Source: Neotamlana sargassicola
GTDB lineage: Bacteria; Bacteroidota; Bacteroidia; Flavobacteriales; Flavobacteriaceae
Length of the DNA stretch: 64,000 nucleotides
Reading direction: 5' to 3'
NCBI RefSeq assembly: GCF_020523965.1
Contig: NZ_JAJAPX010000001.1
Location: forward strand, 186,001 to 250,000
Part shown: piece after piece, positions 7,730-50,736 of the stretch
Numbering within the stretch: the first letter of the stretch is position 1
Layout of the letters: each line of letters begins with the position of its first letter
Made by a program: the position numbers and the translations under genes
Notes under the pieces: model-generated
Seen by the model: the letters and a program-made list of their open reading frames with translations, nothing else
Told to the model about the DNA's origin: nothing
Database searches by the model: none

Positions 7730-8248
7730 TTAATCTTCTTTAAACCAACTGGAATATTTAATATAGTTATTCGCTATTCTATCAATTTGACCAGAAATTA
7801 GTTCTGGGCTAACATCTTTTATTTTTTTAGCTGGAACTCCGGCATAAATACTGCCAGATTCTACGTGGGTATTTTGCGTTAAAACGGCTCCTGCAGCGAT
7901 GATACTATTGCTTTCCACGATACAATTATCCATAATAATACTGCCCATGCCAACCAAAACATTATCGTGAATGGTGCAACCGTGCACTATGGCATTGTGC
8001 CCTATGGAAACGTTATTACCTATTGTTGTTGGAGATGTTTTATATGTAGCGTGAATTACCGCACCGTCCTGTACGTTAACTTTATTTCCCATTTTTATAA
8101 AATGCACATCGCCTCGCACTACAGCATTAAACCAAAAACTACATTGGTTTCCTGCCGTAACCTCGCCAACAATTGTTGCGTTTTCCGCGATATAACAATC
8201 TTCTGGTAATTGCGGATGTTTACCGTTTACAGACTTTATAATTGGCAT
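7730..8248 (-). CDS. Gamma-class carbonic anhydrase family protein
   Basis: This is a 172-residue left-handed beta-helix protein built from hexapeptide repeats of the IxxxxV type. It matches the YrdA/PaaY branch of gamma carbonic anhydrases, which form trimers with a metal at each interface. The three metal ligands of the family are present as His66, His84 and His89, the last two in the IGHNAIVH spacing. Reversible hydration of CO2 is therefore possible, though many members have weak or untested activity. It ends convergent with murI and starts nine bases after the stop of the PorP/SprF gene, so the two may share a transcript. Confidence 0.9.
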   Translation of the reverse strand: MPIIKSVNGKHPQLPEDCYIAENATIVGEVTAGNQCSFWFNAVVRGDVHFIKMGNKVNVQDGAVIHATYKTSPTTIGNNVSIGHNAIVHGCTIHDNVLVGMGSIIMDNCIVESNSIIAAGAVLTQNTHVESGSIYAGVPAKKIKDVSPELISGQIDRIANNYIKYSSWFKED

Positions 8249-8257
8249 AGTTTATTT

Positions 8258-9262
8258 TTAATTAACTGCAGGGCAATTACAGTCGAAACGTTCGCGACGA
8301 CAACTAAAGTTAAACCCTATAGTAATTTGATGAAAGCCACCGTTGGTATAAACAACATCGTCTAACTGGTGGGTATAGTTATAGGCAAACATTAAACTGT
8401 TGTAATCAATTCCTAGTATAGGTGTAATTTGGTTTAAGGTTTGGCTATCTATAGCGTTTCCATCGTTAAGATACTCGGCACCATCGAAGCTTTTACGATA
8501 AGATAAACCGGCCCAAATTTTACCAAAATCCATAGTTTTGTAAGCTTTTGCGTTAAAATCGATTGCTGCTTCTTGGGTTAATTCTCGCAATTGAAACATA
8601 ACGGAAGGCTCGAAACTCCAAGAGCTTCCATATTTATTAAACACGTAACCAGTAGAAAATAAATAGCGACGTAAATTACTAGTTATAGCTAAATCGTTGT
8701 TTACACCAGAATTTTCTAAAACATTTTTAATGGTTCCGTGCAGATAAAAATCCAGATAATGATAAGAAAAACCAAAATCGATATTAAAATTAGTTGCGTT
8801 TTCTACACCACCACTAACAATAGGATCTGGACCATCGAACAAAAAACTAGTTTCATCGAGTTGATATTGAATAAAGCCTGCACTTAAACCAAAGGACAGC
8901 ATGTTTAAATCTACTTCACTTCTGGAAAACATTAAGTGATGCGCATAAGTAAAATAAGCGCCTGTTTGGGAATGATATCCGTTTTTATCGGCAAAAACAA
9001 TACCACCAATACCAGATGGTGAATCGCCTATTCTTCCATTAGCACTAACCGTCATTAATCGCGGTGCATCCTCATGACCAAACCATTGTTGGCGGCCTGT
9101 TAACCTTACTTTAGCACAGTTAGCCGCTCCAGCCATTGATGGATGAATTAAGTAGTAGTTATCGGTTAAATAATCAGTATATATTGGCAAACCTTCCTGC
9201 GAAGTTGCAACAAACGATACCAAAGTAAAAAGAATTACTGCTAACGTATTTTTTTTAATCAT
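8258..9262 (-). CDS. PorP/SprF family type IX secretion system membrane protein
   Basis: This is an outer-membrane barrel protein of the PorP/SprF family, members of which assist type IX secretion or surface display of particular substrates. The ATG at 9262 gives a signal peptide (IKKNTLAVILFTLVSFVATSQ). The frame stays open to 9307, but that start would place 15 extra residues before it. The mature start GLPIYTDYLTDNYYLIHPS and the GRQQWFG motif are characteristic of the family. The C-terminus carries many alternating strands and ends CNCPAVN. No adhesin gene adjoins this copy, unlike the second PorP/SprF gene near 55-56 kb, so its substrate is unknown. Confidence 0.88.
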   Translation of the reverse strand: MIKKNTLAVILFTLVSFVATSQEGLPIYTDYLTDNYYLIHPSMAGAANCAKVRLTGRQQWFGHEDAPRLMTVSANGRIGDSPSGIGGIVFADKNGYHSQTGAYFTYAHHLMFSRSEVDLNMLSFGLSAGFIQYQLDETSFLFDGPDPIVSGGVENATNFNIDFGFSYHYLDFYLHGTIKNVLENSGVNNDLAITSNLRRYLFSTGYVFNKYGSSWSFEPSVMFQLRELTQEAAIDFNAKAYKTMDFGKIWAGLSYRKSFDGAEYLNDGNAIDSQTLNQITPILGIDYNSLMFAYNYTHQLDDVVYTNGGFHQITIGFNFSCRRERFDCNCPAVN

Positions 9263-9408
9263 AGATAAAACCAAGTAGGTTAATATTGAATAAACGTTTG
9301 TTTTCAAAAAAAATTACTTGCAAAAAATACGAATTTTAATCGGTAATTTCTATTATTTAACAATTGGAACAAACCTCAAATATTTAAGCAAGAAAATGTT
9401 TCTTTTAG

Positions 9409-9416
9409 TATTTTTG
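9409..9416 (+). promoter_or_regulatory. Possible -7 promoter element before the Nfu gene
   Basis: TATTTTTG fits the TAnnTTTG consensus and lies 17 bases before the start codon. The -33 region is not clear, so confidence is moderate. Confidence 0.4.
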
Positions 9417-9432
9417 TAAAAAATTAGTTGAA

Positions 9433-10335
9433 ATGAACACTTTTAAGGTTTCTGTGCAAGAAACAACAAACAATGCCATTGTAAAATTTGAATTAAACCA
9501 ATTTGTAACTAAAAATCAGAGTTTCGAATTTAACAACATAGACGAAGCAAAGTCTTCGCCACTGGCTCAACAATTATTTTATTTACCTTTCGTAAAGAAA
9601 ATTTATATATCTGGAAACTTTATTGCCGTAGAACGCTATAATATTGTAGAATGGAAAGACGTTCAAGATGAAGTAGCTCAGCAAATTGAAGCTTATTTAA
9701 ACGACGGTGGTACTGTAATAACAGAAACTGCAACTGCAAAAAAAGTACCTGTAACGGTATATGCTGAAAGTACACCAAACCCAAGCGTAATGAAATTTGT
9801 AGCTAACAAAAAATTAGTAACAGCCATGTTTGAGTTTACCTCTATTGAAGAAGCCAAATTATCGCCACTAGCTACAGAGTTATTTCATTTTCCTTTTGTA
9901 AAAAGTGTATTTTTTGATGAAAACTATGTTTCTATTACAAAATTTGATATTACCGAATGGCAAGAAATTACATTTGAAATTCGTGAATTTATAAGAAGTT
10001 TTATTGAGAAGGGTAAAGACATTGTTTTACCAGAAGCTACCGAAACACTTAAAAAATCTACAGAACAGTTAGACCATCACTTCGAAGCTTTAGATGATAC
10101 ATCGAAACAAATTGTAAATATTCTAGAAGAATATGTAAAACCAGCTGTTGCGAGCGATGGTGGTAATATTCAGTTTATTGGTTACGACGAAAACACTAAA
10201 AACGTGAGTGTGTTACTTCAAGGTGCATGTAGTGGTTGTCCATCGTCAACATTTACACTTAAAAACGGTATAGAAAATATGCTAAAAGAAATGCTTCCAG
10301 GCAAAGTAGCCATGGTTGAAGCTATTAATGGATAA
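9433..10335 (+). CDS. NifU/Nfu family Fe-S cluster scaffold with duplicated N-terminal domain
   Basis: The 300-residue protein carries a C-terminal NifU domain (residues about 220-300). Its CSGCPSS motif (Cys266 and Cys269) can hold a 4Fe-4S cluster for transfer to apo-proteins. Before it are two copies of the Nfu N-terminal domain, at about residues 5-95 and 108-200. Each has the pattern EAKxSPLAxxLFxxPFVKxxx followed by ITEW or IVEW. Ordinary Nfu proteins have one such domain, so the region looks like an internal duplication. It is a single gene with its own probable promoter, followed by dodecin. Cytosolic Fe-S cluster carriage is the family role. The value of the duplication is unknown. 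Confidence 0.9.
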   Translation: MNTFKVSVQETTNNAIVKFELNQFVTKNQSFEFNNIDEAKSSPLAQQLFYLPFVKKIYISGNFIAVERYNIVEWKDVQDEVAQQIEAYLNDGGTVITETATAKKVPVTVYAESTPNPSVMKFVANKKLVTAMFEFTSIEEAKLSPLATELFHFPFVKSVFFDENYVSITKFDITEWQEITFEIREFIRSFIEKGKDIVLPEATETLKKSTEQLDHHFEALDDTSKQIVNILEEYVKPAVASDGGNIQFIGYDENTKNVSVLLQGACSGCPSSTFTLKNGIENMLKEMLPGKVAMVEAING

Positions 10336-10418
10336 GTTTTTTAGAACTTAATGTGACTTTTTAAAGCCAATTGTTTCTAAATTAATAGAAAACAAAATTA
10401 ATTTAAAAACAAAATATT

Positions 10419-10619
10419 ATGGCAGTATTAAAAGTAATCGAGGTGCTTTCTAACTCAAATAAAAGTTGGGAAGATGCTACTAAAAAAGCAGTAAAAGAAG
10501 CCTCAAAAACCTTAAAAAATATTCGTTCGGTTTACGTTCAAGACCAAAGCGCTATTGTAAAAGATGGGGATGTAACCGAGTTTCGAGTAAATTTAAAAGT
10601 TACTTTCGAAATTGAATAA
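10419..10619 (+). CDS. Dodecin family protein
   Basis: Dodecins are small flavin-binding proteins that assemble as hollow dodecamers and store or buffer riboflavin-type cofactors in the cytosol. The 66-residue product shows the family pattern: VLKVIEVLSNSNKSWEDA, an amphipathic helix (ATKKAVKEASKTLKNI), then two strands ending in FRVNLKVTFEIE. The length and start (MAVLKVIE) are exactly as expected. It stands alone, with a good terminator just downstream. Confidence 0.93.
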   Translation: MAVLKVIEVLSNSNKSWEDATKKAVKEASKTLKNIRSVYVQDQSAIVKDGDVTEFRVNLKVTFEIE

Positions 10620-10650
10620 GTCCTAAATACTACCTATTTATATATATTTT

Positions 10651-10677
10651 AAAGCACTCTTTTTTAGAGTGCTTTTT
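10651..10677 (+). terminator. Rho-independent terminator after dodecin
   Basis: Arms AAAGCACTCT (10651-10660) and AGAGTGCTTT (10666-10675) pair perfectly around a TTTTT loop and are followed by further Ts. Confidence 0.8.
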
Positions 10678-10703
10678 CATTTTATAATACTTATTTTTAT
10701 AAC

Positions 10704-12812
10704 ATGAAACATCTTTATCTTTTAGTAATTTTTATTGTTTTATTTTCTTGTACTTCTAAATCGTCAAAACCCATGACCCATAAATATACAAATGCATTAA
10801 TTAACGAAACAAGCCCATATCTTTTACAACATGCGCATAACCCTGTTAATTGGCAACCTTGGAATAGTAAAACATTAAATCAAGCTAAAACAGAAAACAA
10901 ACTTGTTTTAATTAGTATTGGGTATGCGGCTTGCCATTGGTGCCATGTTATGGAACATGAAAGTTTTGAAGATTCGTTGGTAGCACAAACCATGAACATC
11001 AATTACATCAATATTAAAATTGATAGAGAAGAACGCCCAGATGTAGACCAAGTTTACATGAATGCCGTACAACTTATGACTGGCCAAGGTGGTTGGCCTT
11101 TAAATATTGTAGCCTTACCAGATGGCAGACCTGTTTGGGGCGGTACATATTTTAAAAAAGAACAATGGATTAGCGCTTTAAACCAAATTGCAGAATTATA
11201 TAAAAGTAACCCAGAAAAACTACATGAATATGCCAATAAATTAGAACAAGGCATAAAAAGCATGGATGTTGTTGCTACAAACAATAACAAACCCGATTTT
11301 AATAAAACATTTATAAATAATGCCATAAAAAATTGGTCTAAAAGTTTCGATAAGCATTATGGTGGCACTAACCGAGCTCCAAAATTTATGATGCCAAATA
11401 ACTATCAATTTTTACTTCGTTATGCTTATCAAAATAACGACCAAGACATTTTAAATTTTGTAAACCTTACGCTAACCAAAATGGCTTATGGCGGATTGTA
11501 CGACCATATTGGCGGTGGTTTTTCTCGATATTCTGTCGATATTAAATGGCATGTGCCGCATTTCGAAAAAATGCTTTACGACAATGCACAACTGGTAAGT
11601 TTATATGCCGATGCTTACCAACTTACAAAAAGCGAACTCTACAAAAACGTAATTACAGAAACATTAAATTTTGTAAACAATGAAATGACAACTAAAAACG
11701 GTGCATTTTTCTCCTCTTTAGATGCCGATAGCTTAAATAAAAACAACGAATTAGAAGAAGGCGCGTTTTACGTATGGACAAAACAAGAGTTAGAACATAT
11801 TTTAAAAGAAGATTTCTTATTATTTTCCAACTATTATAATGTAAACGATTTCGGGTTTTGGGAGCATAACAATTACGTACTAATAAAAAATGAAGACGAT
11901 AACGCTTTCGCGGAAAAACATAACATTTCAATAGAAGCCCTTCAATCCTATAAAACAAAATGGAAGCAAACACTATTAGAAATTAGAAATAAACGCCCAA
12001 AACCAAGGTTAGACGATAAAACTCTAACCTCTTGGAATGCCTTAATGCTTAAAGCCTACGTGGATGCTTACCGAGTTTTAGGTGATGAAATTTATCTCGC
12101 TTCTGCAGAAAAAAACGCAAACTTTATTTTAAACAATCAGTTACAAAACGATGGTAGCTTGTTTCATAATTACAAAAATGGAAAAAGCTCCATTAATGGT
12201 TTTTTAGAAGATTACGCCACCACTATTGAGGCATTTATTGCGCTTTACGAAGTTACCGGAGAAGAAAAATGGTTAAAAACATCGCGCGATTTAACGAATT
12301 ACACCTTCGATTTCTTTTTTAATAAAACCAGTAATATGTTTTTCTTCACATCCAGTAAAGATGAAGCTTTAGTATCTAGAAGTGTAGAATACCGCGATAA
12401 CGTAATAGCAGCCAGCAATTCTATTATGGCAAATAACTTGTTTAAATTGTCACATTATTTTGATAATGAATATTTTTATAACACAGCAACAAACATGCTA
12501 AACAACGTAACTTTGGAAATGCAAGATTACCCATCTGGCTATTCAAATTGGTTTAATTTAATGCTAAATTACACACATCCATATTACGAAGTTGCATTAG
12601 TTGGTAATGAAGTTAATAAACAACTAACCGAATTAAATAAAAACTATTTACCAAATAAATTAATTGCTGTATCTAAATATGAAAACAGTATGCCTCTATT
12701 AAAAAACAGATTTACACCAGATAAAACCTTAATTTATGTTTGTGTAAACAAATCATGTAAATTACCTGTAAGCAAAACTAAAGAAGCCTTAAAACTTATA
12801 ACAAAACAATGA
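10704..12812 (+). CDS. DUF255 thioredoxin-domain protein (SPATA20/YyaL family), predicted lipoprotein
   Basis: The 702-residue protein matches the YyaL/spermatogenesis-associated 20 family. It has a thioredoxin-like N-terminal domain (residues about 25-190) and a large alpha/alpha-barrel resembling N-acylglucosamine epimerases. The segment [17 protein letters not shown] and the motif CHWCH (residues 77-81) are diagnostic. Here the N-terminus is a lipoprotein signal with the putative lipidated Cys16 in LFSC, so the protein should sit on the periplasmic side. Many homologues lack a signal. The biochemical function of the family is not established. Its stop overlaps the next start in ATGA. Confidence 0.88.
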
Positions 12813-13168
12813 AAACATTAACCATAATATTACTCGCATTTGTAGCTATAGAACATTTTTACTTTTTAATTTTAGAAATGTTTTTCTGGACCAAACCAAA
12901 AGGCATAAAAGCCTTTAATATAAAATCTGAAGCTTTTGCTAAAGAAACTAAAGTTTTAGCCGCTAATCAAGGTTTATATAATGGTTTTATAGCTGCCGGA
13001 ATTATATTTTCTATTATTAAAAATGATATTTCAACCGCGTTATTTTTTACGGTTTGTGTAATAATTGCTGGTATTTATGGGGCTTACTCAACTAAACAAA
13101 TTAAGCTATTTTATTTTCAATCGGTTCCAGCTATAATTACACTAATAATTATTTTATTGAGTTTTTAG
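12809..13168 (+). CDS. DUF1304 family small membrane protein
   Basis: This 119-residue protein has four hydrophobic segments and matches DUF1304. Diagnostic features are the N-terminal [16 protein letters not shown] pattern, then [12 protein letters not shown], then [21 protein letters not shown] near the end. No function is established for the family. The ATG shares four bases with the preceding DUF255 stop (ATGA), which implies translational coupling and a possible joint role in the envelope. Confidence 0.88.
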
Positions 13169-41330: not shown

Positions 41331-42536
41331 TTATTTCTTTAAAATAACACTAAAAGTAGTTTGTTTGTTTAAGATAGAATTAACGTGTATTTCGCCTTGT
41401 AGTTTTTTTATTATGTTTTTTACGGTTGCTAAACCAATTCCATTGCCTGTTCGCCCAAATTTATCGTACTTATTTAATTTGTAAAACACATTGAAAATTT
41501 TTTCATGATAATTTTCATGAATTCCTGGGCCATTATCTTGTACTAATATTCTATAATGACTTGCTGTTTCGCATATATTTAAAGTTATATTTACTTGGTT
41601 TTTATCGTTGTATCTAATAGCATTATTAACTAATTCTCTAATAATTTGGTTAAAACCATATTTGTTTACTTCTATTTCGGATAAGCTTGAATTTAAAGTA
41701 AAATTGACTTCTTTATAATGCTTAATAATATTGTCTTGTAAATCTGACTCAAATTCTTTTAAAGAAATGGCCTCTTTTTCTTTATTTAAAATACTATCGC
41801 GCGTATTATAACTTAGTAACCCATCTACCAAACTGGTTAAATCTTCTGATGATTTTATTATGAGTTCAAGCATATTTAAACCCGCATCGTCAATATCTAA
41901 TTTATAATCTTGCTTAATAATTTGAGCTAAATTACTTATGTTTAGTAAAGGTGATTTTAAGTCGTGTGCTGCTAAATATGCAAATTTTTCTAATGCTTCA
42001 TTTTTATCTTTTAAATCGTTTAATGAGGTCTGCAAATTCGCATTAGCTTTTCGTAGTTCGAGTAATTTTATTACTTGATTTGATAAAGCTTTTAAAGTTT
42101 CTAACTGTTCGTTGGTAAGCTGATGCGGTTTATTGTCTATAACACATAAGGTTCCTAAAGGCATCCCTTTATTGGTTGTAAGCGGAATACCAGCGTAAAA
42201 CACAACATGCGGATCACCAGTAACTAATGGATTATCATGAAATCGTTCGTCTTCTCTAGAATCGTTAATTACAAATGGCTGGTTTGGCCTATTAATGGCA
42301 TGAGCACAAAATGCAAATTCCTTTGGAGTTTCTGTAACATTTAAACCATGGTGCGATTTAAACCATTGACGCCTATCATCAATTAAGCTCACTAAGGCTA
42401 TTGGAACGCCACAAATTTCGGCAGCAATTTTAGTTATATTGTCATAATCGGCCTCTGGTAAAGTATCTAAAATATTAAACGACTTTAAAAATTCCAGCCG
42501 TTCGCCTTCGTTTTCGGGTTCTTTTGGTGCAATCAT
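41331..42536 (-). CDS. GAF-domain sensor histidine kinase, soluble and without adjacent response regulator
   Basis: The product has 401 residues and no membrane helix. The GAF domain spans about residues 20-165 (VPIALVSLIDDRRQWFKS, FCAHAI, FYAGIPLTT). A short coiled coil follows, then the HisKA dimerisation helix with phosphoacceptor His191 in AAHDLKSPLLNI. The catalytic domain has the N box (ELVNNAIRYND), G1 (VQDNGPGIH), F box and G2 (GNGIGLATV). All catalytic boxes are intact. This GAF type occurs widely in flavobacteria and its ligand is unknown. No receiver domain lies near it, so its partner is elsewhere. Confidence 0.92.
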   Translation of the reverse strand: MIAPKEPENEGERLEFLKSFNILDTLPEADYDNITKIAAEICGVPIALVSLIDDRRQWFKSHHGLNVTETPKEFAFCAHAINRPNQPFVINDSREDERFHDNPLVTGDPHVVFYAGIPLTTNKGMPLGTLCVIDNKPHQLTNEQLETLKALSNQVIKLLELRKANANLQTSLNDLKDKNEALEKFAYLAAHDLKSPLLNISNLAQIIKQDYKLDIDDAGLNMLELIIKSSEDLTSLVDGLLSYNTRDSILNKEKEAISLKEFESDLQDNIIKHYKEVNFTLNSSLSEIEVNKYGFNQIIRELVNNAIRYNDKNQVNITLNICETASHYRILVQDNGPGIHENYHEKIFNVFYKLNKYDKFGRTGNGIGLATVKNIIKKLQGEIHVNSILNKQTTFSVILKK

Positions 42537-42613: not shown

Positions 42614-44167
42614 CTATTTTAAATGAACAATATTAAAATTCACCGTTTTTAAATCGGCAATGAGTTGTACCGACTCACCTAAATTACTCCAAGTAATATC
42701 AATTTTATGTGTTGCAGACGGATTTATTTTTACACTACCAGAAAAAGCTTTACTGGTATTACGTAAACGCATTAACTCTAATTGTTTCAAAACTACATCT
42801 TGTTTTAAACCAGACTCAATTTCTTCTAGCGACAATGTAGTACGGTTAATTTCTTTATGACCACCACTTCCTGCGTTATCGGCAGCTTCATAATCGTTTT
42901 TCCCAGCAAATAAATCGAGATACCATACTTGAGGAATTCCAGGAACAAACATTTGAAGAGCTCTTGCCAACAACAGCTTTTTTTCATCTTCACCTAATGC
43001 ACTAAAAAACGTAGCATTAACCTGATAATAAGATATTTTTTTACCATCGGGACCGTAAAGATTTTTTACGCGACCACCGCGACTCATCACGGTTTCCATA
43101 ATGGCATCAATCTCGCTATCATTTAAAAGACCTTCGTTATAATCACCATCAATTTCCTTTCCTTTTAAATCGAGCACTGGAATACCATCGTGACACCCCA
43201 ACATATTTACGGTTTTATAACCTTTTGCAACAATCTCGTTAATCCATTTATACAAGGCTTTATTGCTAGCCGTTTCCAATGTATGAATCATTAAGCCGGG
43301 TAAGAAAAAATCGTAAATTTGATAACCTTCTTTAGCGACCTCATCATGCAGATTTACACCATATTCGGCATGTATTTCTGGTAATAATTTTAAATTATTT
43401 TTATCGGCAATTTGTTTTATGCGCTCCAAATATTGCCAAGTTCCTGGTTTATTAAAAAAGTTAGTTTCTCCTACTTCTTTATGCAAATAAGCAAAAGCAT
43501 CTAACCTTAATATTTTACAACCGTATTGTTTTAACTTAGCTAAAGTTTCTTCGTAAAATTCCCAAACCAATTCCGATTTGGCATTTACATCCATTTGCCC
43601 TAAATAACTACGTTCTTTAGTTTCTGGATCTTCTATTATTTGTTGATAAAAAGTGTTCCAATAAGGTTGTTCGCTACCATCAGAGAACGGCACTTTTAAA
43701 ATTGGCAAACCTGATTTTCTCATAAAAAGTTTATCGAGATATTCAGGATTTGGTTTTATAACACCGTCGCTATTTAATTCGCCATAACCTTCCCAAAACG
43801 TATTCCAGTTTATAAAAAAATCTTTGTATTTAGAAGCATTACCATGTGCTAATAAATCTTTGAATTGCGGTGAAGCTACAGACAAATGATTTAGAACAAT
43901 ATCGAATTTAAGCATGATATCGAGTGCTTCTAAATCTTTTAAATCGGCTTCTGAAACCAAGTCTTTGTTAATATTATAATCGATTATTGAAAAACCCCGA
44001 TCTAAATCGCTATTAAAAAAAGTTGGCAACACATAAAACAATGAAAAGACGTCTTTAAATTCTGGTTTTTTAAGCATTGAAATAATATCGCTTAAATTTT
44101 CGCCAATACTATCTGGGTAAGCGTTAAGCATAACTCCATTTGGAATAGAATTTTTAGTTGAACTCAT
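42614..44167 (-). CDS. GH13_18 sugar phosphorylase, probably sucrose phosphorylase
   Basis: The predicted reaction is sucrose plus phosphate to glucose-1-phosphate and fructose, in the cytosol (no signal peptide). The 517-residue length fits GH13_18. The barrel shows VLNHLS, the nucleophile Asp223 in LRLDAFAYLHK, the acid/base Glu264 in LLPEIHAEYG, and the transition-state Asp327 in GCHDGIPVLDLKG. The YYQVNATFFSALG and PGIPQVWYLDLFAGKNDYE segments are characteristic of this subfamily. Alternatives are sucrose-6-phosphate or glucosylglycerate phosphorylase. The adjacent PfkB kinase, a plain permease and a LacI regulator favour sucrose. It is the last gene of the sugar operon, 20 bp after the kinase. 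Confidence 0.85.
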   Translation of the reverse strand: MSSTKNSIPNGVMLNAYPDSIGENLSDIISMLKKPEFKDVFSLFYVLPTFFNSDLDRGFSIIDYNINKDLVSEADLKDLEALDIMLKFDIVLNHLSVASPQFKDLLAHGNASKYKDFFINWNTFWEGYGELNSDGVIKPNPEYLDKLFMRKSGLPILKVPFSDGSEQPYWNTFYQQIIEDPETKERSYLGQMDVNAKSELVWEFYEETLAKLKQYGCKILRLDAFAYLHKEVGETNFFNKPGTWQYLERIKQIADKNNLKLLPEIHAEYGVNLHDEVAKEGYQIYDFFLPGLMIHTLETASNKALYKWINEIVAKGYKTVNMLGCHDGIPVLDLKGKEIDGDYNEGLLNDSEIDAIMETVMSRGGRVKNLYGPDGKKISYYQVNATFFSALGEDEKKLLLARALQMFVPGIPQVWYLDLFAGKNDYEAADNAGSGGHKEINRTTLSLEEIESGLKQDVVLKQLELMRLRNTSKAFSGSVKINPSATHKIDITWSNLGESVQLIADLKTVNFNIVHLK

Positions 44168-44187
44168 AATGATTAATTGAGGCTATT

Positions 44188-45120
44188 TTATAAAAGTTTT
44201 GAAACTATATTAATGTTATCGGGTAATCTCCCTACATTTTGAAGCTTAAGTGCTGCCAATTTTAACGCAACTTCTAAACATTCGGTCACTGGTTTTTCAT
44301 TGATATATGCAAACAAAAATCCAGACCAAAAAGCATCACCAGCCCCCGTTGCATCCATCACCTTTTCAATTTTTATAGCAGGCATTTTTATGAGTTCTTT
44401 TCCTTTTTGCGACAAAACAACACCTTTACTTCCTAGGGTTAAACAAACCGTATCGACACCTTGATTATGAAAAAACTCGAAAATTTCTTCATGAGGTAGC
44501 TCTTTTTCAAAAAGTCGCAACATATCGTCTTCACTAACTTTTACCAAAGGATTGAATTTGCAATAGGCTTTTATTACCGACAAAGCTTCATCTCTGCTTT
44601 CCCAAAGTTTTCTAGCATAGTTTACATCAATACTAAGTTTACACCCTAAATTATAAGCTTCTTCTGCTTTTTTAATTATGGTGTCTTGCGCTGGTTTTTT
44701 ACTTAGCGCAAAACAAGTTGTATGATATATTTTTGTTTTTTGAAGGGTTTCTGAAGTTATTTGATCTTCTGTTATTTTATAATCGGTATCTCGAAATGGC
44801 AAGAAATCTGGCGTACCTTCCGATCGGGATACAAAAATAACACTTGTCGCATTTCTTCCCAATTGTTTAATAAAATCAATATTAACACCAACTTCATTTA
44901 ATCGCTTAAAAATATACTCACCAAATCCATCTTGACCAACCGTAGCCACTAAAGCAGCATTTAAACCTAATCGCGCCATATTCATAGCAACATTAGTTGG
45001 CGATCCGCCAAGGTATCGATGATAGTCTCTAGTTTCGTTTATTAAAACACCAGGTTGATGCCCAATAAAATCGACCAAAACTTCGCCAACACACAAAATA
45101 TCTATATTATTATTTTCCAT
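44188..45120 (-). CDS. PfkB-family carbohydrate kinase, probably fructokinase
   Basis: The 310-residue ribokinase-fold enzyme would phosphorylate fructose released by the neighbouring phosphorylase, feeding fructose-6-phosphate to glycolysis. It has the N-terminal substrate-binding motif RYLGGSPTNVAMNMARLG (residues about 35-52). The C-terminal PfkB signature is DATGAGDAFWSGF, with catalytic Asp262 and the anion hole GAGD at 259-262. Substrate choice within PfkB kinases is hard to read from sequence, so the fructose assignment is mainly from context: 36 bp after the sugar permease and 20 bp before the phosphorylase. Confidence 0.85.
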   Translation of the reverse strand: MENNNIDILCVGEVLVDFIGHQPGVLINETRDYHRYLGGSPTNVAMNMARLGLNAALVATVGQDGFGEYIFKRLNEVGVNIDFIKQLGRNATSVIFVSRSEGTPDFLPFRDTDYKITEDQITSETLQKTKIYHTTCFALSKKPAQDTIIKKAEEAYNLGCKLSIDVNYARKLWESRDEALSVIKAYCKFNPLVKVSEDDMLRLFEKELPHEEIFEFFHNQGVDTVCLTLGSKGVVLSQKGKELIKMPAIKIEKVMDATGAGDAFWSGFLFAYINEKPVTECLEVALKLAALKLQNVGRLPDNINIVSKLL

Positions 45121-45156
45121 TGAAAATTATATCTGTAAAATTCTGTTTATCTAATT

Positions 45157-46452
45157 TTAACCTACCTTTTTACTTTTTATAAAAAGCGTACACAAAGCGC
45201 TTATTACAAGTAATACTCCAGCAAAAGTTATTGCGTTTCTAGGGTCGTTGTTTAGGAAGTTTTTAAGAATAAAGCCGAAAGAAAGCGTTTGAAGAATCAT
45301 TGGTATTACAATCATCATATTTATAATACCCATGTAAACACCATATCGCTCTTTTGGAATATCTGCAACTACCATTAAGTAAGGAATCCCCATCATACTT
45401 GCCCAACCAATACCAAAACCAGTAATGGCAAAAAACAGTAGGTTTTTGTTTTCTATGTGCGGAAAGGCTAAAAACCCTAACGCAGCAATAATTAAGCAAA
45501 AAGCATGTACTTTTTTAGCACTAAACTTTTTTGCAAAACCAACCAATGCAAAAGCCACTAAAAAAGTAACTACGTTATACCAACCATTTACTAAACCCGT
45601 CCATCCTACAGCTTCACTATAAGCTTCAGTATTTTCTGGAGTTGCGTTCCACACTGAAAGCGCCACACTTTTTGATGAATTTTGCCAATAACAAAACAAT
45701 GCATACCACTGAAACAAATACACTAAAGCCAACTGCCACATTACTTTAGGCATATCTTTTATAGCCGAAAATATTTCTAGAATTGGCTCGAAAACAGACT
45801 TTTTTTCCCTGATTTTTATAAGTTCTTCTTCGGTTGGCGGAATTTCTTTGGTTTTACTTATACTCCATAAAATAGAAGCTATAGAACAAAACGCTCCCAA
45901 GAAAAAAGATGCATACACCCAAGTTGGCAATGATCCCGTTTTACCAATAAATATTAATGGAAAAACAAACAGCGACACATTGGCTAAAACCTGCCCTAAA
46001 CCCGTAAAAAAACTTTGCATTTGAAACCCAAGTGGTTGTTGTACTTCATCTAAATTATCCGCAATTAATGCTCTGTAAGGCTCCATGGCAGTATTATTTC
46101 CTGCGTCTAAAATCCATAACAAACCAGCTGCCATCCATAACGAACTACTATAAGGAAAGGCCAACAACGTTAAACTACATAAAATCGCTCCTATTAAAAA
46201 AAATGGTTTTCTACGCCCAAATTTAGGACTCCAAGTTTTATCGCTTAAGGCTCCAATTAATGGTTGTACTACCAAGCCCGTAACAGGACCTGCTAAATGC
46301 AAAATTGGAATTTGATCTGGACTCGCTCCTAAAAAATCATAAATGGGTGTAACCGCACTTTGTTGCAAACCAAAACTATATTGAATGCCAAAAAAACCAA
46401 CATTCATGTTTAATATTTGCCAAAACGATAATTTTGGTTTTACTAGTTTCAT
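45157..46452 (-). CDS. MFS sugar transporter (SLC45-like), probable inner-membrane sucrose uptake
   Basis: The 431-residue protein has twelve hydrophobic helices. The loop after helix 2 reads [18 protein letters not shown], the pattern of SLC45/sucrose-type transporters. The stretch [18 protein letters not shown] is also typical of that branch. It would import intact disaccharide, probably with protons, which suits a cytosolic phosphorylase with no kinase on the glucose side. Its ATG overlaps the preceding glutaredoxin stop by four bases (ATGA on the minus strand). Transport of maltose instead of sucrose cannot be excluded by sequence alone. Confidence 0.86.
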
Positions 46453-46817
46453 TTTGTTTTGTTTTTAGAAATTAGTTGCTTTAAAAAGCCTTCAAAATCT
46501 GCTACATCATTCATTATTAGCTGTCCTTGTAAATCTACAACAGGTAACGATAATTCATCTACAGACAATCCTGATTTTTCCATTTTTAAAAGCATTTCGC
46601 GTTGCATTGTTATATTTACATCGACATCAAAATACCGAAACTCAACATTATTTTTCTTTAAAAATGCTTTGGTATCTACGCAATAATGACAACTATCGCT
46701 TCCATACACAATTATTTTGTTGTTTTTAGCTTTTGCTAATTGATTGTTATCGACCTGTGCTGATGATGACAGATACGAAAACAGTCCGATAAAAAACACT
46801 TTAAAAATAAATTGCAT
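46449..46817 (-). CDS. Exported glutaredoxin-like protein with CHYC active site
   Basis: The 122-residue protein has a signal peptide of about 20 residues (ending SSSA). A glutaredoxin or thioredoxin fold follows, with strand IIVYGSDSCHYC and active-site Cys43 and Cys46. A predicted FDVDVN strand and a LSLPVVDLQGQLI segment carry the cis-proline (Pro92). Glutaredoxins are normally cytosolic, but this one should be periplasmic. It overlaps the sugar permease start by four bases and so belongs to the sugar operon. A role in oxidising or protecting envelope proteins of the locus is possible but speculative. Confidence 0.8.
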   Translation of the reverse strand: MQFIFKVFFIGLFSYLSSSAQVDNNQLAKAKNNKIIVYGSDSCHYCVDTKAFLKKNNVEFRYFDVDVNITMQREMLLKMEKSGLSVDELSLPVVDLQGQLIMNDVADFEGFLKQLISKNKTK

Positions 46818-46836
46818 AATGTTGTTATTTAGTTAG

Positions 46837-46882
46837 AAAAAAAAGAGCTGAAAACAATTTAAGTTAAATTAATTTCCAGCTC
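46837..46882 (-). terminator. Terminator or attenuator between the TonB receptor and the sugar operon genes
   Basis: GAGCTG (46845-46850) and CAGCTC (46877-46882) close a longer, partly paired A/T-rich stem. On the minus strand the stem is followed by eight Ts. It lies between the receptor stop and the glutaredoxin start, so it can limit read-through from the receptor. Confidence 0.6.
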
Positions 46883-46911
46883 CAAACAATCACTAAAAAT
46901 CAAACCACTTT

Positions 46912-49536
46912 TTAGAATTTATACTGAAGTGATAAGGTTGTTGAACGTCCGCTAATAGAACGTGCTCTTACTAAACGTGCATCTCCGAATGCTCCATCTC
47001 CATTACCTTCAACTTCTGTAATACCTACGGTATCGAATAAGTTATTTACGCTTAACACTAAGGATAAGCCTTTAGTTAAACCAGCTCTACCAATTAAATT
47101 GAAGTATGCATAACCTGGCATAACTAAATCGTTATCATCTTGAGCATAAGATTTTGTAGTACCTAAAACACTTAACGCTACACTGTGTTGACTCTCTTCA
47201 CCAAAGTTATAAGCAGGTGATAAGTTATACACTAAATCGGCTTGTCTTCTTGGAGTATTTCCTTTGTTATCGCCACCATCAATTTCTGCTTTAGTCCAAG
47301 TAAATGACCCATTAAATGATAAGTTATCTGTAAATGCTAAAGCGGTTTCAGCTTCAACACCCATAGCCTTAAAAGGATTTCCTACCGAACGGTTTAACTC
47401 GTTACTTAAACCTTCATCGGTATTACTTCTAAAAGCAGTAACGTTAACTACACCGTTGTTTAATCTTTTCTTGAAACCAACTTCTAATTGAGAAACTTCG
47501 TCAAACTGTACATCAGCTTTTCCATTAAGACCATAGTTATTTCTATCGGCTGCTCTACCAGAAGCACCAGAACTATATCTACCAAACACAGCCATATCGT
47601 CATTAAACTTATAATTAAGACCTAAAGAGTACGATACAAAATTGTAGCTATCATCAATTACCTGTCCTGCATTTCCAGTAATTACTGGCACCACTTGCTC
47701 AATACCTTCAATAGTTCCGTTACCATCATAATCATAATTTCCTTGACTTGTTGGTCCTGCTTGAATGTTTCCGTTTACATTTACATTTTCGAAACGTACA
47801 CTACCATCAAAATTTAACTTTTCGGTGATGTCTGCATCTACACCAACATAAGGTGAGTTTACATTATGTACTGTGTTGTATTTACGTTGACAACAGTTAC
47901 CCCAAATTGGCGTACCATAAGAGAATTGTCCGTTTCTTGAAAAGCCATCAAAATCGGCTAATCGAGCATCACCACCGCCTTTAACTTCTGATAAAAATGA
48001 ACTCCATTGCCATCCTATTTTAGTGTTTTGAGTAGCTGTAAATAAACCAGCCGTAACACCTACATTATCTCCAATTTTCTTAGTTACTTTAACATCTCCA
48101 AAGAAGTTACTTAAATCGTCTACAGTAACATCAAACATGTGGATTACTTGTGCTAATCCGTTTGATGGATTAAATACTTCTCTGTCACCATCGGCATACA
48201 CTAAGTTACCAGTTGCTCCAACCGCATCTCTAGCTAAAGTTTCCATTTCTGAAACCGTACCAATAGCCGCTGTAAAAGGAGATACCCACTCACCACTGTT
48301 ATTAGAATATCTTGCTTTACCCATTAACTTCCAATCGTTTGGTAAGCTAAAAGAGAATTCTGCACCTAAAGCTTTAGACACTGGGTTGTTACCATTGCGC
48401 ACATCGTTTACATGATTTTCGCCACTAAATGGTGATGTTCCTGCACTTTGTTGTAAATGTGTCGAGTGTACTGCATCTGATGTTATATCGAAACCAGGTA
48501 AATTAGAAAATGTTGGATCGTCGTTACTACCCTCTAACAACATTGGCATTGGTAAATACATTACCGATTTGTCGTTTAATAATTTTACATAAGCACGCAC
48601 ATAACCGCTTTCAAAACGTTTTGTTAAGTTCGCTTTAAACTGTCCACCTTTATTACCTTGGTATCCAATTTCTCTTGGCCCTTCACCCGCTCTAACAAAT
48701 CCACCAATGTGATAAGACAAACCGTTACCAAGTGGCGTTCCATACTCAAAATCTAATCGGCTTGTTTGGTAATCTAAACCAAAGGTTGTTCCTACCGAAC
48801 CACCTTCTGTGGCACCAGTTTTACTAATCATGTTAATAATACCTGCTGGACCATTTGAGGTTTGCGTAGATGCCGAACCACCACGAATAGCTTCAACTCT
48901 ACCTATGTTTGTATCAATTCTTAAAAAGTTATCGGCATTACCAAAAGAAGTATCTCCAAATAAATTTAATGGCAAGCCATCTTCTTGAATTTGAAAATAA
49001 CGAGAACCACCTGAAGAAATAGGCACACCACGCACATTAAAGTTGGCATTACCTTCACCGCCCGACGATTCTGCACGAATACCAGGCACATTTCTAAAAA
49101 GTTCTCCAGCACTTCTTGGTGAAGCTTGTTCTATTAGCTCTACATCCATTGAAGAAACCGATACACTCGATTCAATTTTAGATTTAGGGTTTACAACACC
49201 TGTTACAACTACTTGGTCTAAAGATTGGGCATCTTCAGCCATAATTATATTTACTGTAATATCACTACCACTAAGGGTTACACTTTTTGAAAAAGATGCA
49301 TAACCTATAAAAGTAGCAGATAGCGTATAATTTCCATTTTCTAAACCAGAAATGGTATAATTTCCATCAAAATCGGTTACCGAACCTTTTGTAGTTCCTT
49401 CTAAAATTACATTAACACCTGGAAGTGGCACTCCAGCTTCATCTTTTACATTTCCAGAAATTGATTGTGCCATTAAACTGCCAACCGACAACAGCATCGC
49501 AAAAATCAAAATTCCGTTTAGTTTAATTGTTCTCAT
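46912..49536 (-). CDS. TonB-dependent receptor with carboxypeptidase-like N-terminal domain, predicted sugar uptake
   Basis: The 874-residue outer-membrane receptor has a signal peptide ending at SLMAQ. A carboxypeptidase-regulatory-like domain (residues about 25-110) contains GVPLPGVNVILEGT. A TonB-box-like LDQVVVTG precedes the plug domain (PGIRAESSGGEGNANFNVRG). The 22-strand barrel closes with STTLSLQYKF. It is shorter than SusC proteins and has no SusD gene beside it. The layout recalls the sucrose-type TonB receptors of Xanthomonas and related bacteria, which also sit beside a LacI regulator. It is transcribed away from lacI, with two operators in the shared region. Confidence 0.9.
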   Translation of the reverse strand: MRTIKLNGILIFAMLLSVGSLMAQSISGNVKDEAGVPLPGVNVILEGTTKGSVTDFDGNYTISGLENGNYTLSATFIGYASFSKSVTLSGSDITVNIIMAEDAQSLDQVVVTGVVNPKSKIESSVSVSSMDVELIEQASPRSAGELFRNVPGIRAESSGGEGNANFNVRGVPISSGGSRYFQIQEDGLPLNLFGDTSFGNADNFLRIDTNIGRVEAIRGGSASTQTSNGPAGIINMISKTGATEGGSVGTTFGLDYQTSRLDFEYGTPLGNGLSYHIGGFVRAGEGPREIGYQGNKGGQFKANLTKRFESGYVRAYVKLLNDKSVMYLPMPMLLEGSNDDPTFSNLPGFDITSDAVHSTHLQQSAGTSPFSGENHVNDVRNGNNPVSKALGAEFSFSLPNDWKLMGKARYSNNSGEWVSPFTAAIGTVSEMETLARDAVGATGNLVYADGDREVFNPSNGLAQVIHMFDVTVDDLSNFFGDVKVTKKIGDNVGVTAGLFTATQNTKIGWQWSSFLSEVKGGGDARLADFDGFSRNGQFSYGTPIWGNCCQRKYNTVHNVNSPYVGVDADITEKLNFDGSVRFENVNVNGNIQAGPTSQGNYDYDGNGTIEGIEQVVPVITGNAGQVIDDSYNFVSYSLGLNYKFNDDMAVFGRYSSGASGRAADRNNYGLNGKADVQFDEVSQLEVGFKKRLNNGVVNVTAFRSNTDEGLSNELNRSVGNPFKAMGVEAETALAFTDNLSFNGSFTWTKAEIDGGDNKGNTPRRQADLVYNLSPAYNFGEESQHSVALSVLGTTKSYAQDDNDLVMPGYAYFNLIGRAGLTKGLSLVLSVNNLFDTVGITEVEGNGDGAFGDARLVRARSISGRSTTLSLQYKF

Positions 49537-49583
49537 TCTTTAGTTTTTTTAGTTATTCAACAATATTTCAAGCTTGTTTTTGT

Positions 49584-49591
49584 CAAATTTA
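49584..49591 (-). promoter_or_regulatory. Possible -7 promoter element of the TonB receptor gene
   Basis: On the minus strand this reads TAAATTTG (TAnnTTTG), 48 bases before the receptor start. The -33 spacing is not ideal. The two operator centres lie about 46 and 67 bases upstream of its midpoint. Confidence 0.4.
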
Positions 49592-49625
49592 TATTTTAAT
49601 AACACAAAAAATATCATTTTAACAA

Positions 49626-49661
49626 TCGAAAACGTTTTCGAAAATACCGAAAACGTTTTCG
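49626..49661. promoter_or_regulatory. Tandem LacI-family operators between the receptor and lacI genes
   Basis: Two palindromes with the CG-centred form of LacI operators are present. The first is TCGAAAACGTTTTCGA (49626-49641, perfect over 16 bp). The second is CGAAAACGTTTTCG (49648-49661, perfect over 14 bp). Their centres are exactly 21 bp apart, two helical turns, so two dimers would bind the same face. No other copy was noticed in the window. Binding by the adjacent regulator is inferred. Confidence 0.8.
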
Positions 49662-49710
49662 ATTTAAAAAATAAATACTAAATTTAAATTACAAAACAAC
49701 AAATTACTAA

Positions 49711-50736
49711 ATGAAACAAGCGACTTTAAAGGACATCGCAGAGCAACTAAATTTATCTGTAACTACAGTATCAAAAGCATTAAAAGGCTATCCCGACGTA
49801 AGTAAAAAAACCAGAGCCATGGTAAAGGAGCTTGCCAAAACTTTAAACTATAAGCCTAATACCTTTGCCGTAAATTTAAGAACCAAAGAATCGAAAACCA
49901 TTGGTTTAATTATTCCTGTAATTGTGCATCATTTTTTTTCGAATGTTATAAGGGGTATTGTGGCTCAAGCCGAAAAAAAAGGCTATTTGGTAATTATTTT
50001 ACAATCTAACGAATCGTACGAACTCGAAAAAAAACAATTAGATTTATTAATAAGTCAGCGTGTTGATGGCATCATAATTTCATTGGCTAATGGAACCGCC
50101 GATTTTTCTCATATAAACGCCATTATTGCGCAAGACAAACCTTTGGTTATGTTCGATAAAATTGCCAAAGTGGTTCAATGCTCGAAAGTAATTATAGACG
50201 ACCGAAAAGCGGCTTATATGGCTACGCAACATTTAATTGATACGGGTTGTAAACGCATTGCCCATTTTAGAGGTGCGCTTTTACCGCAAAACTCTATTGA
50301 TAGATTTTTAGGTTATAAAAAAGCTTTGATTGATAATGGTTTTACATACGACCCATCGTTGGTTTATATATGCGAATGTGGTGATATGAGTTTTGAAGAA
50401 GGCCAAAAAAACGCCAAACAACTTTTAGAAGACCATAATGATGTTGACGGCATTTTTATTAATACCGATTTAGTGGCTATTGGAGCCATGACAGAATTTA
50501 GCAAACGAGGTGTAAAAATACCAGAAGATATTAGCATTGTAGGTTTTAGTAACTGGTTTATGTCGTCGGTAATTTCGCCAAGTTTAACTACTATTGATCA
50601 ACCAGGTTATGATATGGGAAAAAGTGCATTTAAACAACTTTTTAAAGAAATTAAAGCTAAAAAGAAAAACACAGCATTTACACCAAAAACCGTAACCTTA
50701 GAAACGGCTTTAGTAAAACGCGATTCCACAAAATAA
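49711..50736 (+). CDS. LacI/GalR-family transcriptional regulator of the sugar locus
   Basis: The 341-residue regulator has an N-terminal helix-turn-helix with the family pattern TLKDIAEQLNLSVTTVSKAL (residues 4-23) and the hinge region around YKPNTFAVNLR. A periplasmic-binding-like sensor domain follows (TIGLIIPVIVHHFFSNVIRG, DGIFINTDLVAIGAM, SIVGFSNWFMSSVISPSLTTIDQP). It is divergent from the receptor gene with two palindromic operators between them, so it is very probably autoregulated and controls the receptor and perhaps the enzyme genes. The inducer is likely sucrose or a product of its metabolism. It could act as repressor or activator. Confidence 0.92.
   Translation: MKQATLKDIAEQLNLSVTTVSKALKGYPDVSKKTRAMVKELAKTLNYKPNTFAVNLRTKESKTIGLIIPVIVHHFFSNVIRGIVAQAEKKGYLVIILQSNESYELEKKQLDLLISQRVDGIIISLANGTADFSHINAIIAQDKPLVMFDKIAKVVQCSKVIIDDRKAAYMATQHLIDTGCKRIAHFRGALLPQNSIDRFLGYKKALIDNGFTYDPSLVYICECGDMSFEEGQKNAKQLLEDHNDVDGIFINTDLVAIGAMTEFSKRGVKIPEDISIVGFSNWFMSSVISPSLTTIDQPGYDMGKSAFKQLFKEIKAKKKNTAFTPKTVTLETALVKRDSTK

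Follow-up and report, generated by a model that had tools for sequence, protein, structure and literature searches.

A SusD-less sucrose-scavenging operon of Neotamlana sargassicola that may work through phosphorylated sucrose, with a candidate PfkB-family sucrose kinase and a predicted strict sucrose-6F-phosphate phosphorylase

The sux locus of Xanthomonas combines a TonB receptor, a LacI-type regulator and a permease for sucrose, as does the locus described here, which occupies positions 42614-50736 of a 64,000-nucleotide stretch of Neotamlana sargassicola DNA (NCBI RefSeq assembly GCF_020523965.1, contig NZ_JAJAPX010000001.1, positions 186,001 to 250,000; this whole stretch is referred to as the window). 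The cleaving enzyme of sux is an amylosucrase-type GH13 protein, whereas that of the window is a GH13_18 protein predicted to be of the sucrose-6F-phosphate phosphorylase (SPP) type. The Scr system of Shewanella (OmpScr, ScrT-II, ScrK, ScrP and ScrR-II) is described as a TonB receptor, a permease, a kinase and a phosphorylase together with a LacI regulator (PMC2996990), and it shares with the window a SusD-less TonB receptor, an MFS permease, a PfkB kinase, a GH13_18 enzyme and LacI. The layout is therefore already known from Shewanella and is not new; the unusual parts are a chemistry in which phosphorylation would come first and the clade to which the kinase belongs. Compared with Shewanella by its published layout and with Pseudoalteromonas by sequence, the window has neither a ScrP of the sucrose phosphorylase (SP) type nor a kinase of the SP-linked group.

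A strict SPP encoded beside a sucrose kinase has been reported from Ruminococcus gnavus (PMC6521584). The R. gnavus cluster resembles the window in encoding a kinase next to the phosphorylase, but there the transporter is of the ABC type and the kinase is AgaSK, a P-loop enzyme whose kinase domain is described as carrying a Walker A motif, whereas the window has a TonB receptor, an SLC45-like permease, LacI and a kinase that is a PfkB protein rather than a P-loop enzyme. A 2020 review of these enzymes leaves the source of sucrose 6F-phosphate (S6FP) for strict SPPs open, naming uptake by the phosphotransferase system (PTS) or an environmental or metabolic source (PMC7178133). We propose, with a probability of roughly 0.6, that the window encodes a SusD-less sucrose-scavenging operon working via phosphorylated sucrose, in which the PfkB kinase acts first and a strict SPP second. 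The receptor would carry sucrose over the outer membrane and the permease over the inner membrane; the kinase would phosphorylate the fructosyl O6 to yield S6FP; and the GH13_18 enzyme would use phosphate to convert S6FP into glucose 1-phosphate and fructose 6-phosphate (F6P), at a cost of one ATP per sucrose and with no free hexose. The locus is thus a concrete candidate for an S6FP source, a PfkB kinase, in bacteria without a match to PTS EIIC.

The phosphorylase gene (42614-44167, minus strand) encodes 517 residues. Its closest solved relative is 6s9u (E = 3e-214), the Ilumatobacter coccineus enzyme IcSPP, with 62% identity over 504 aligned residues. Among the compounds tested, IcSPP is reported to be active with S6FP or F6P only, and its clade is said to include Flavobacteriia (PMC6720575). 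Published fingerprints assign N(L/V)D(I/L/V)YQ to sucrose phosphorylases (EC 2.4.1.7) and KxxYYQ to strict SPPs (EC 2.4.1.329) (PMC7178133). Loop A of the window enzyme reads K377-I-S-Y-Y381-Q382 (within KKISYYQ; codons 43022-43039, minus strand), which corresponds to K373, Y377 and Q378 of IcSPP, and the SP motif is absent. All nine positions compared (catalytic D223, E264 and D327, and R152, K364, K373, Y377, Q378 and K434, in IcSPP numbering) are shared with IcSPP; the catalytic triad, these specificity residues and KxxYYQ also ally it with RgSPP of R. gnavus. As controls, an Agathobacter enzyme (L152; related loci, genomes and contigs are given as L, G and C numbers) carries the SPP residues in a setting unlike that of the window, with an ABC transporter and an adjoining 946-residue alpha-galactosidase gene that is AgaSK-like by size, and the enzymes of three Pseudoalteromonas loci (L151, L203, L205) all read NVDLYQ.

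Conservation was surveyed in the best 80 of 241 confirmed matches in named genomes, each taken with flanks of up to 10 kb, cut short in some cases by the end of the contig; the patterns used for the search were derived from the window protein, which leaves distant relatives under-represented. Eight of the nine residues are invariant in 80/80 relatives, including R152, K364 and K434, which bind F6P in IcSPP, and K373 is kept in 79/80; KxxYYQ is likewise present in 79, with L059 reading R in place of K. Invariance alone is a weak argument, because 220 of the 506 aligned SPP columns are as conserved as the specificity residues, a naive chance of 1.6% for five columns. The case rests instead on which residues stand there and on published variants: R152A, K364S, K434R and K434A of IcSPP are reported to gain activity on fructose and to lose performance on F6P (PMC6720575), and selection for the use of plain sucrose should therefore not keep all specificity residues. 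By this signature the window enzyme, which has every strict-SPP sequence feature tested, is predicted to be a strict SPP.

The first-pass annotation had the GH13_18 enzyme phosphorolyse plain sucrose, and this is probably wrong; the predicted preference is for sucrose-6-phosphate, one of the substrates that the annotation had named as speaking against its own view. Plain sucrose phosphorolysis had been the first view here as well, from the NCBIfam model TIGR03852 ("sucrose phosphorylase"; 346.6 bits against a cut-off of 334.4), and was dropped as the leading view after IcSPP proved to be the closest structure. The model is unable to separate SP from SPP signatures and cannot decide the matter, because the window enzyme passes its cut-off while bearing the SPP signature. 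Other "sucrose phosphorylase" calls made with TIGR03852 in marine Flavobacteriaceae may be wrong in the same way, which changes the modelling of sucrose use. A classical order of reactions, in which plain sucrose is phosphorolysed despite the enzyme's signature and an ordinary fructokinase, the PfkB protein, then acts on the released fructose, as in the Shewanella Scr scheme, would have the TIGR03852 score and its shared gene types in its favor, and the ScrT-ScrP pair is reported to have given Escherichia coli growth on sucrose (PMC2996990). With the SP motif absent and all strict-SPP residues present and conserved, we consider this order unlikely, and the kinase evidence below bears on it further.

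Comparison gives good support for sucrose as the sugar taken up. The receptor (46912-49536, minus strand; 874 residues) is 44% identical over 808 residues to its counterpart from Pseudoalteromonas, in a locus whose enzyme bears a true sucrose phosphorylase motif. The permease (45157-46452, minus strand; 431 residues), an SLC45/SUC-like protein predicted to be a sucrose:cation symporter, finds Arabidopsis SUC1 as its best solved relative (8bb6, E = 1.5e-19), followed by SLC45A4; against the NCBIfam model GPH_sucrose it scores 103 bits, below the cut-off of 511, and by BLAST at E 1e-5 it has no similarity to the MFS protein of Pseudoalteromonas L151. Relatives of both receptor (41%) and permease (46%) occur in Novosphingobium alongside an annotated GH68 gene and a ROK kinase gene. 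Because the receptor resembles that of an SP locus, the permease is nearest to SUC1, and the substitute for the phosphorylase in sister loci is nearest in fold to sucrose invertases, sucrose is the probable cargo. This agrees with the first-pass annotation of a SusD-less sucrose uptake locus with a TonB receptor, an SLC45-like permease and LacI. A layout unlike SusCD is likewise borne out: none of the six genes encodes SusD, by open reading frame list and by Pfam and NCBIfam searches, and the receptor scores 105 bits against the SusC/RagA model, below its cut-off of 368.

A strict SPP needs S6FP. PTS was considered as its source and set aside, as searches for EIIC found nothing in the window's genome and in 20 further genomes with SPP, some of them incomplete, while the control matched 7 of 14 known genomes. 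The PfkB gene (44188-45120, minus strand; 310 residues) is the only kinase gene of the operon and lies directly upstream of the phosphorylase gene; its product, with PfkB (170 bits) as its sole Pfam match, is a candidate sucrose 6F-kinase. Phosphorylation at the primary hydroxyl of a substituted furanose has precedents among PfkB enzymes, namely adenosine and aminoimidazole riboside kinases, which align to the kinase model with Z of about 34-37; a fructofuranoside substrate is thus chemically plausible. The AlphaFold model of the kinase aligns with PfkB kinases at Z up to 38.9, and IolC, 2-keto-3-deoxygluconate (KDG) kinase, fructokinase and adenosine kinase all fall at about 34-39, so that substrates are not separable by fold. 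The kinase scores 125 bits against the fructokinase model NF006957 (PRK09434), whose cut-off of 450 is also missed by a Pseudoalteromonas kinase (236 bits). Of the six further PfkB proteins in the window's genome four were scanned, and none attained a fructokinase cut-off. Plasmid PfkB matches in Catenovulum, Priestia and Treponema had no sucrose context, and the open-access literature searched yielded no PfkB sucrose kinase.

Co-occurrence ties the kinase to two cleaving enzymes. One sample of 299 genomes of Flavobacteriaceae, the window's family as judged by its nearest named relative, taken with no completeness filter, was searched at E <= 1e-100 for the phosphorylase, E <= 1e-80 for the kinase and E up to 1.5e-70 for a GH100-like enzyme; these were found in 29, 55 and 30 genomes, respectively, the last threshold having been set after a gap was seen and six further matches at about 1e-31 having been set aside. 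The kinase accompanies SPP in 29/29 genomes (one copy, in G618, has a stop codon; Fisher p = 2e-25, kinship ignored), all 26 of the remaining kinase genomes carry the GH100-like enzyme (one, G585, with a stop codon), and SPP and the GH100-like enzyme are never found together in the 299. With its split of 29, 26 and 0, the pattern is a clear-cut example of enzyme replacement, one kinase clade being accompanied by either of two unrelated cleaving enzymes. Genes also lie close together: match starts of SPP and kinase are <2.5 kb apart in 27/29 genomes, and those of the GH100-like enzyme and kinase <7 kb apart in 25/26. Four genomes have the GH100-like enzyme without the kinase. Proteins of about 700 residues account for the six matches set aside, of which two come from SPP genomes (G550, G616); they resemble a fusion protein encoded by the window's genome.

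Loci with the replacement enzyme are otherwise alike. L181-L183 have related LacI, receptor, permease and kinase genes, with the GH100-like enzyme in the place of the phosphorylase. AGE-epimerase had been suspected as the partner there from a plasmid annotation and was discarded when Pfam showed a GH100-like protein. In a structural model (built on an alignment of six rows; mean predicted local distance difference test, pLDDT, of 75), the first 25 Foldseek rows are all of the neutral invertase fold (E = 3e-12 to 7e-10); the GH100 alkaline/neutral invertases InvA, InvB and AtNI2 share this fold at only 16-18% identity. The window's genome has no match to this enzyme at E <= 1e-30. In this sister lineage the GH100-like enzyme would substitute for the phosphorylase beside the same kinase clade, and it could equally act on S6FP. 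Another locus (L188) holds a natural fusion of a GH100-like domain and a PfkB kinase (8027-10186, 719 residues), near a receptor 43% identical to that of the window.

Phylogenetic trees separate this kinase from those of SP loci. Two trees, of 98 and 31 rows, place the SPP-linked kinases in a single clade with the GH100-linked ones (support 100/97 and 99/99); within it, the kinases of two SPP loci (L025, L066) group with those of L181-L183 (100/100). Kinases from SP loci (L203, L205) and from loci with GH13 proteins of about 650 residues (L158, L159, L161, L162) form another group (99/95), are 25-30% identical to the window kinase and have the fructokinase model as their best NCBIfam match at 171-237 bits, compared with 125 for the window kinase. 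The 650-residue proteins, unnamed by NCBIfam, are presumed from their context to be GH13_4 enzymes (amylosucrase or sucrose hydrolase). Pseudoalteromonas L203 and L205 pair a true SP (NVDLYQ) and a receptor of the same family with a kinase of the other clade (29% identity), and L158 and L161 pair the 650-residue GH13 protein and the same permease (61 and 71%) with such a kinase; L159 and L162, from the window's own family, are without that permease. The Pseudoalteromonas receptor shares even a pair of adjacent cysteines with that of the window, while its loci differ in the SP motif (L151, L203, L205) and in a fructokinase-like kinase (L203, L205; none was found in L151). The kinase type therefore appears to change with the cleaving enzyme while the receptor or permease stays related. 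Since the midpoint root serves display only and the program flagged long branches, the clade split is good evidence, not proof. Most simply read, cleaving enzymes that set fructose free would be paired with fructokinases, and SPP, perhaps along with the GH100-like enzyme, would be paired with a kinase that acts on sucrose before cleavage. This speaks against the classical order, as the window kinase falls outside the SP-linked and GH13-linked group. Among ten 650-residue GH13 regions (L156-L165), the permease occurs in L156, L157, L158 and L161 and a PfkB match in L158, L159, L161, L162, L164 and L165; the L164 kinase falls elsewhere in the 98-row tree, with a paralogue from the window's genome, and was omitted from the 31-row tree, and the L165 kinase is in neither.

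Several observations weigh against a kinase that acts on sucrose, and an ordinary fructokinase is the main rival reading for it. The 26 genomes in which this clade accompanies the GH100-like enzyme would fit a fructokinase well, as the nearest solved fold relatives of that enzyme hydrolyse plain sucrose; to this extent the classical order is favored. By sequence the nearest solved kinase, 3hj6 (35% identity), was deposited as "fructokinase", which also favors that order and which, as a deposit label only, was not used as proof of activity. For AgaSK, a sucrose kinase already known from an SPP locus, the reported site of phosphorylation is C6 of glucose, not of fructose (PMC7688924). L156 and L157 have the permease and the 650-residue GH13 gene with no PfkB match. 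When ten SPP genomes were searched for the kinase, seven without and three with one adjoining SPP, five of the seven (L035, a metagenome-assembled genome (MAG), and L060, L061, L069 and L071) lacked a close relative, their best matches being 24-41% identical over part or full length with E of 1e-8 or weaker than 1e-14; two Saprospiraceae MAGs (L067, L068) had a relative at 42-44%. In a sample of 395 genomes of the phylum, 25 match the kinase at E <= 1e-25, and in G068, G339 and G343 (50-55%) and in G371, G249 and G190 (42-44%) the kinase match is not accompanied by a strong match to GH13_18; those in G068, G339 and G343 belong to GH100 loci. For other kinases the neighbor is a permease (L184, L185) or a sodium:solute symporter (L187), and no adjoining GH13_18 or GH100-like gene was recognised.

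On balance, we find the evidence evenly poised for the broader proposal that the PfkB protein is a sucrose 6F-kinase feeding strict SPPs without PTS and that the GH100-like enzyme is an S6FP hydrolase, giving a phosphate-first pathway with interchangeable phosphorolytic and hydrolytic forms. The subclade uniting L025 and L066 with L181-L183 implies that one kinase type must suit both cleaving enzymes, and a kinase taking both fructose and sucrose, before cleavage with SPP and after cleavage with the GH100-like enzyme, would satisfy this; as the substrate of the GH100-like enzyme could equally be S6FP, such dual specificity would be unnecessary, and we regard it as improbable. The annotated ATP-saving route by phosphorolysis survives in part: the cost is one ATP per sucrose by the chemistry of either order, and plain sucrose as the phosphorolysed substrate is what probably falls away.

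We also weighed whether the phosphorylase handles S6FP from an internal sucrose-phosphate synthase, or runs backwards, with the transport genes serving something else. The window's genome does encode a GT-B protein that scores 197 bits with the sucrose-phosphate synthase model (cut-off 576; the MshA model gives 218), adjoined by a protein whose HAD domain just misses the cut-off of the sucrose-phosphate phosphatase model (170 against 183.65 bits). Olleya aquimaris (L020, G404), by comparison, has the permease, kinase and SPP genes and a best synthase-model match of 36 bits, so that a synthase as the S6FP source was kept as possible for the window's genome and rejected for Olleya; moreover, the phosphorylase gene stands last in a transport operon headed by conserved operator-like palindromes. 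This explanation is very improbable. The GT-B protein (9668-10945 of locus L153, contig C36) and its 698-residue HAD-domain neighbor (10950-13046) possibly serve the synthesis or turnover of a sucrose-like solute; other genomes encode proteins of about 700 residues like the latter, which show about 29% identity in their matches to the GH100-like enzyme.

The proposed phosphate-first operon would be under LacI control. The regulator gene (49711-50736, plus strand; 341 residues) is divergent from the other five, and the 174 bp between them contain two copies of CGAAAACGTTTTCG, a perfect palindrome, at 49627-49640 and 49648-49661, with starts 21 bp apart. Of 49 LacI-receptor spacers including that of the window, 37 hold two exact copies, five hold one and seven none; two of these seven have near copies and one, L004, a different repeat. 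Mononucleotide shuffles gave no palindrome match in 200 rounds. One further exact copy in the window's genome (C32:418699-418712, L168) may be chance, as the reversed control pattern also occurs once. Among six GH100 loci searched, the twin sites recur in L181-L183 and are missing from L189, L191 and L192. We infer that LacI binds the twin palindromes as operators and would repress the operon until a pathway sugar, the likely inducer, binds. A sigma-70 and terminator scan, with 32 promoter-like sites against 29.2 expected, was uninformative.

Six open reading frames sit exactly inside 42614-50736. Family labels come from Pfam and NCBIfam profile searches of the window proteins and agree with the annotated set of receptor, glutaredoxin-like protein, SLC45-like permease, PfkB kinase, GH13_18 enzyme and divergent LacI regulator; Pfam matches beyond PfkB are MFS_1 for the permease, Glutaredoxin, Plug with the TonB barrel and CarbopepD_reg_2 for the receptor, and LacI with Peripla_BP for the regulator. 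Gaps of 20, 36, -4 and 94 bp between the five minus-strand genes are consistent with a shared transcript. A histidine-kinase-like gene at 41331-42536, between the phosphorylase gene and maeB, is probably outside the sucrose locus, because its homologues are clustered in only 5/80 loci.

The gene block recurs in marine Flavobacteriaceae beyond chance: all six parts are present in 30/80 loci, and all except the glutaredoxin gene in 49. The closest of the best 80, from Tamlana nanhaiensis, has a phosphorylase 98% identical and the same gene order. By part, the kinase and the permease each occur in 74 loci, LacI in 53, the receptor in 50 and the glutaredoxin gene in 30; the kinase count includes L068 (41% identity, two genes off), and the kinase gene is directly upstream of the phosphorylase gene in 73. 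Both queG, mapped on the LacI side, and maeB, on the phosphorylase side, are present in 24 loci, which therefore share one chromosomal site; L181 and L182 occupy the same queG-maeB site. There are at least two sequence types each of the receptor, the permease and the phosphorylase, combined in varying ways. The window phosphorylase is of a short form, as is IcSPP: an insertion of about 52 residues in the domain-B region, near the acceptor-site domain, is absent from both and present in 61/80 relatives (e.g., L007, L034, L068, L071), scored by a length >560 residues with the sequence inspected in four.

Present in 30/80 loci, the glutaredoxin-like gene (46449-46817, minus strand) was rejected as a fixed part. 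It encodes a CHYC protein of 122 residues whose N terminus resembles an export signal by eye. The receptor of the window has Cys548 and Cys549, adjacent, as its sole cysteines (codons 47890-47895, minus strand). Among 50 receptors, all 30 with a nearby glutaredoxin gene have exactly two cysteines after residue 25, as an adjacent CC pair; the remaining 20, which lack the gene nearby, comprise 13 with the pair and seven with none. The gene was thus found only beside CC receptors in the loci examined (30/43 with CC, 0/7 without; Fisher 7.8e-4, kinship ignored), and receptors from Pseudoalteromonas and Novosphingobium have the pair too, with no such gene annotated next to them. A plausible guess is that the glutaredoxin-like helper holds the CC pair in one redox state.

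Some SPP genes (L060, L061, L069, L071) sit outside sucrose loci; that of L069 adjoins a sodium:solute symporter gene, and a gene of the same cluster is found at that place in L060. SusCD genes had been expected in the permease-kinase spacer of L020, L031 and L057, where the genes, scanned by one representative of each cluster (from L057, L074 and L083), instead encode MFS permeases, a trehalase and an alpha-amylase-like protein. Loci such as these three also have a GH97 gene upstream of the permease.

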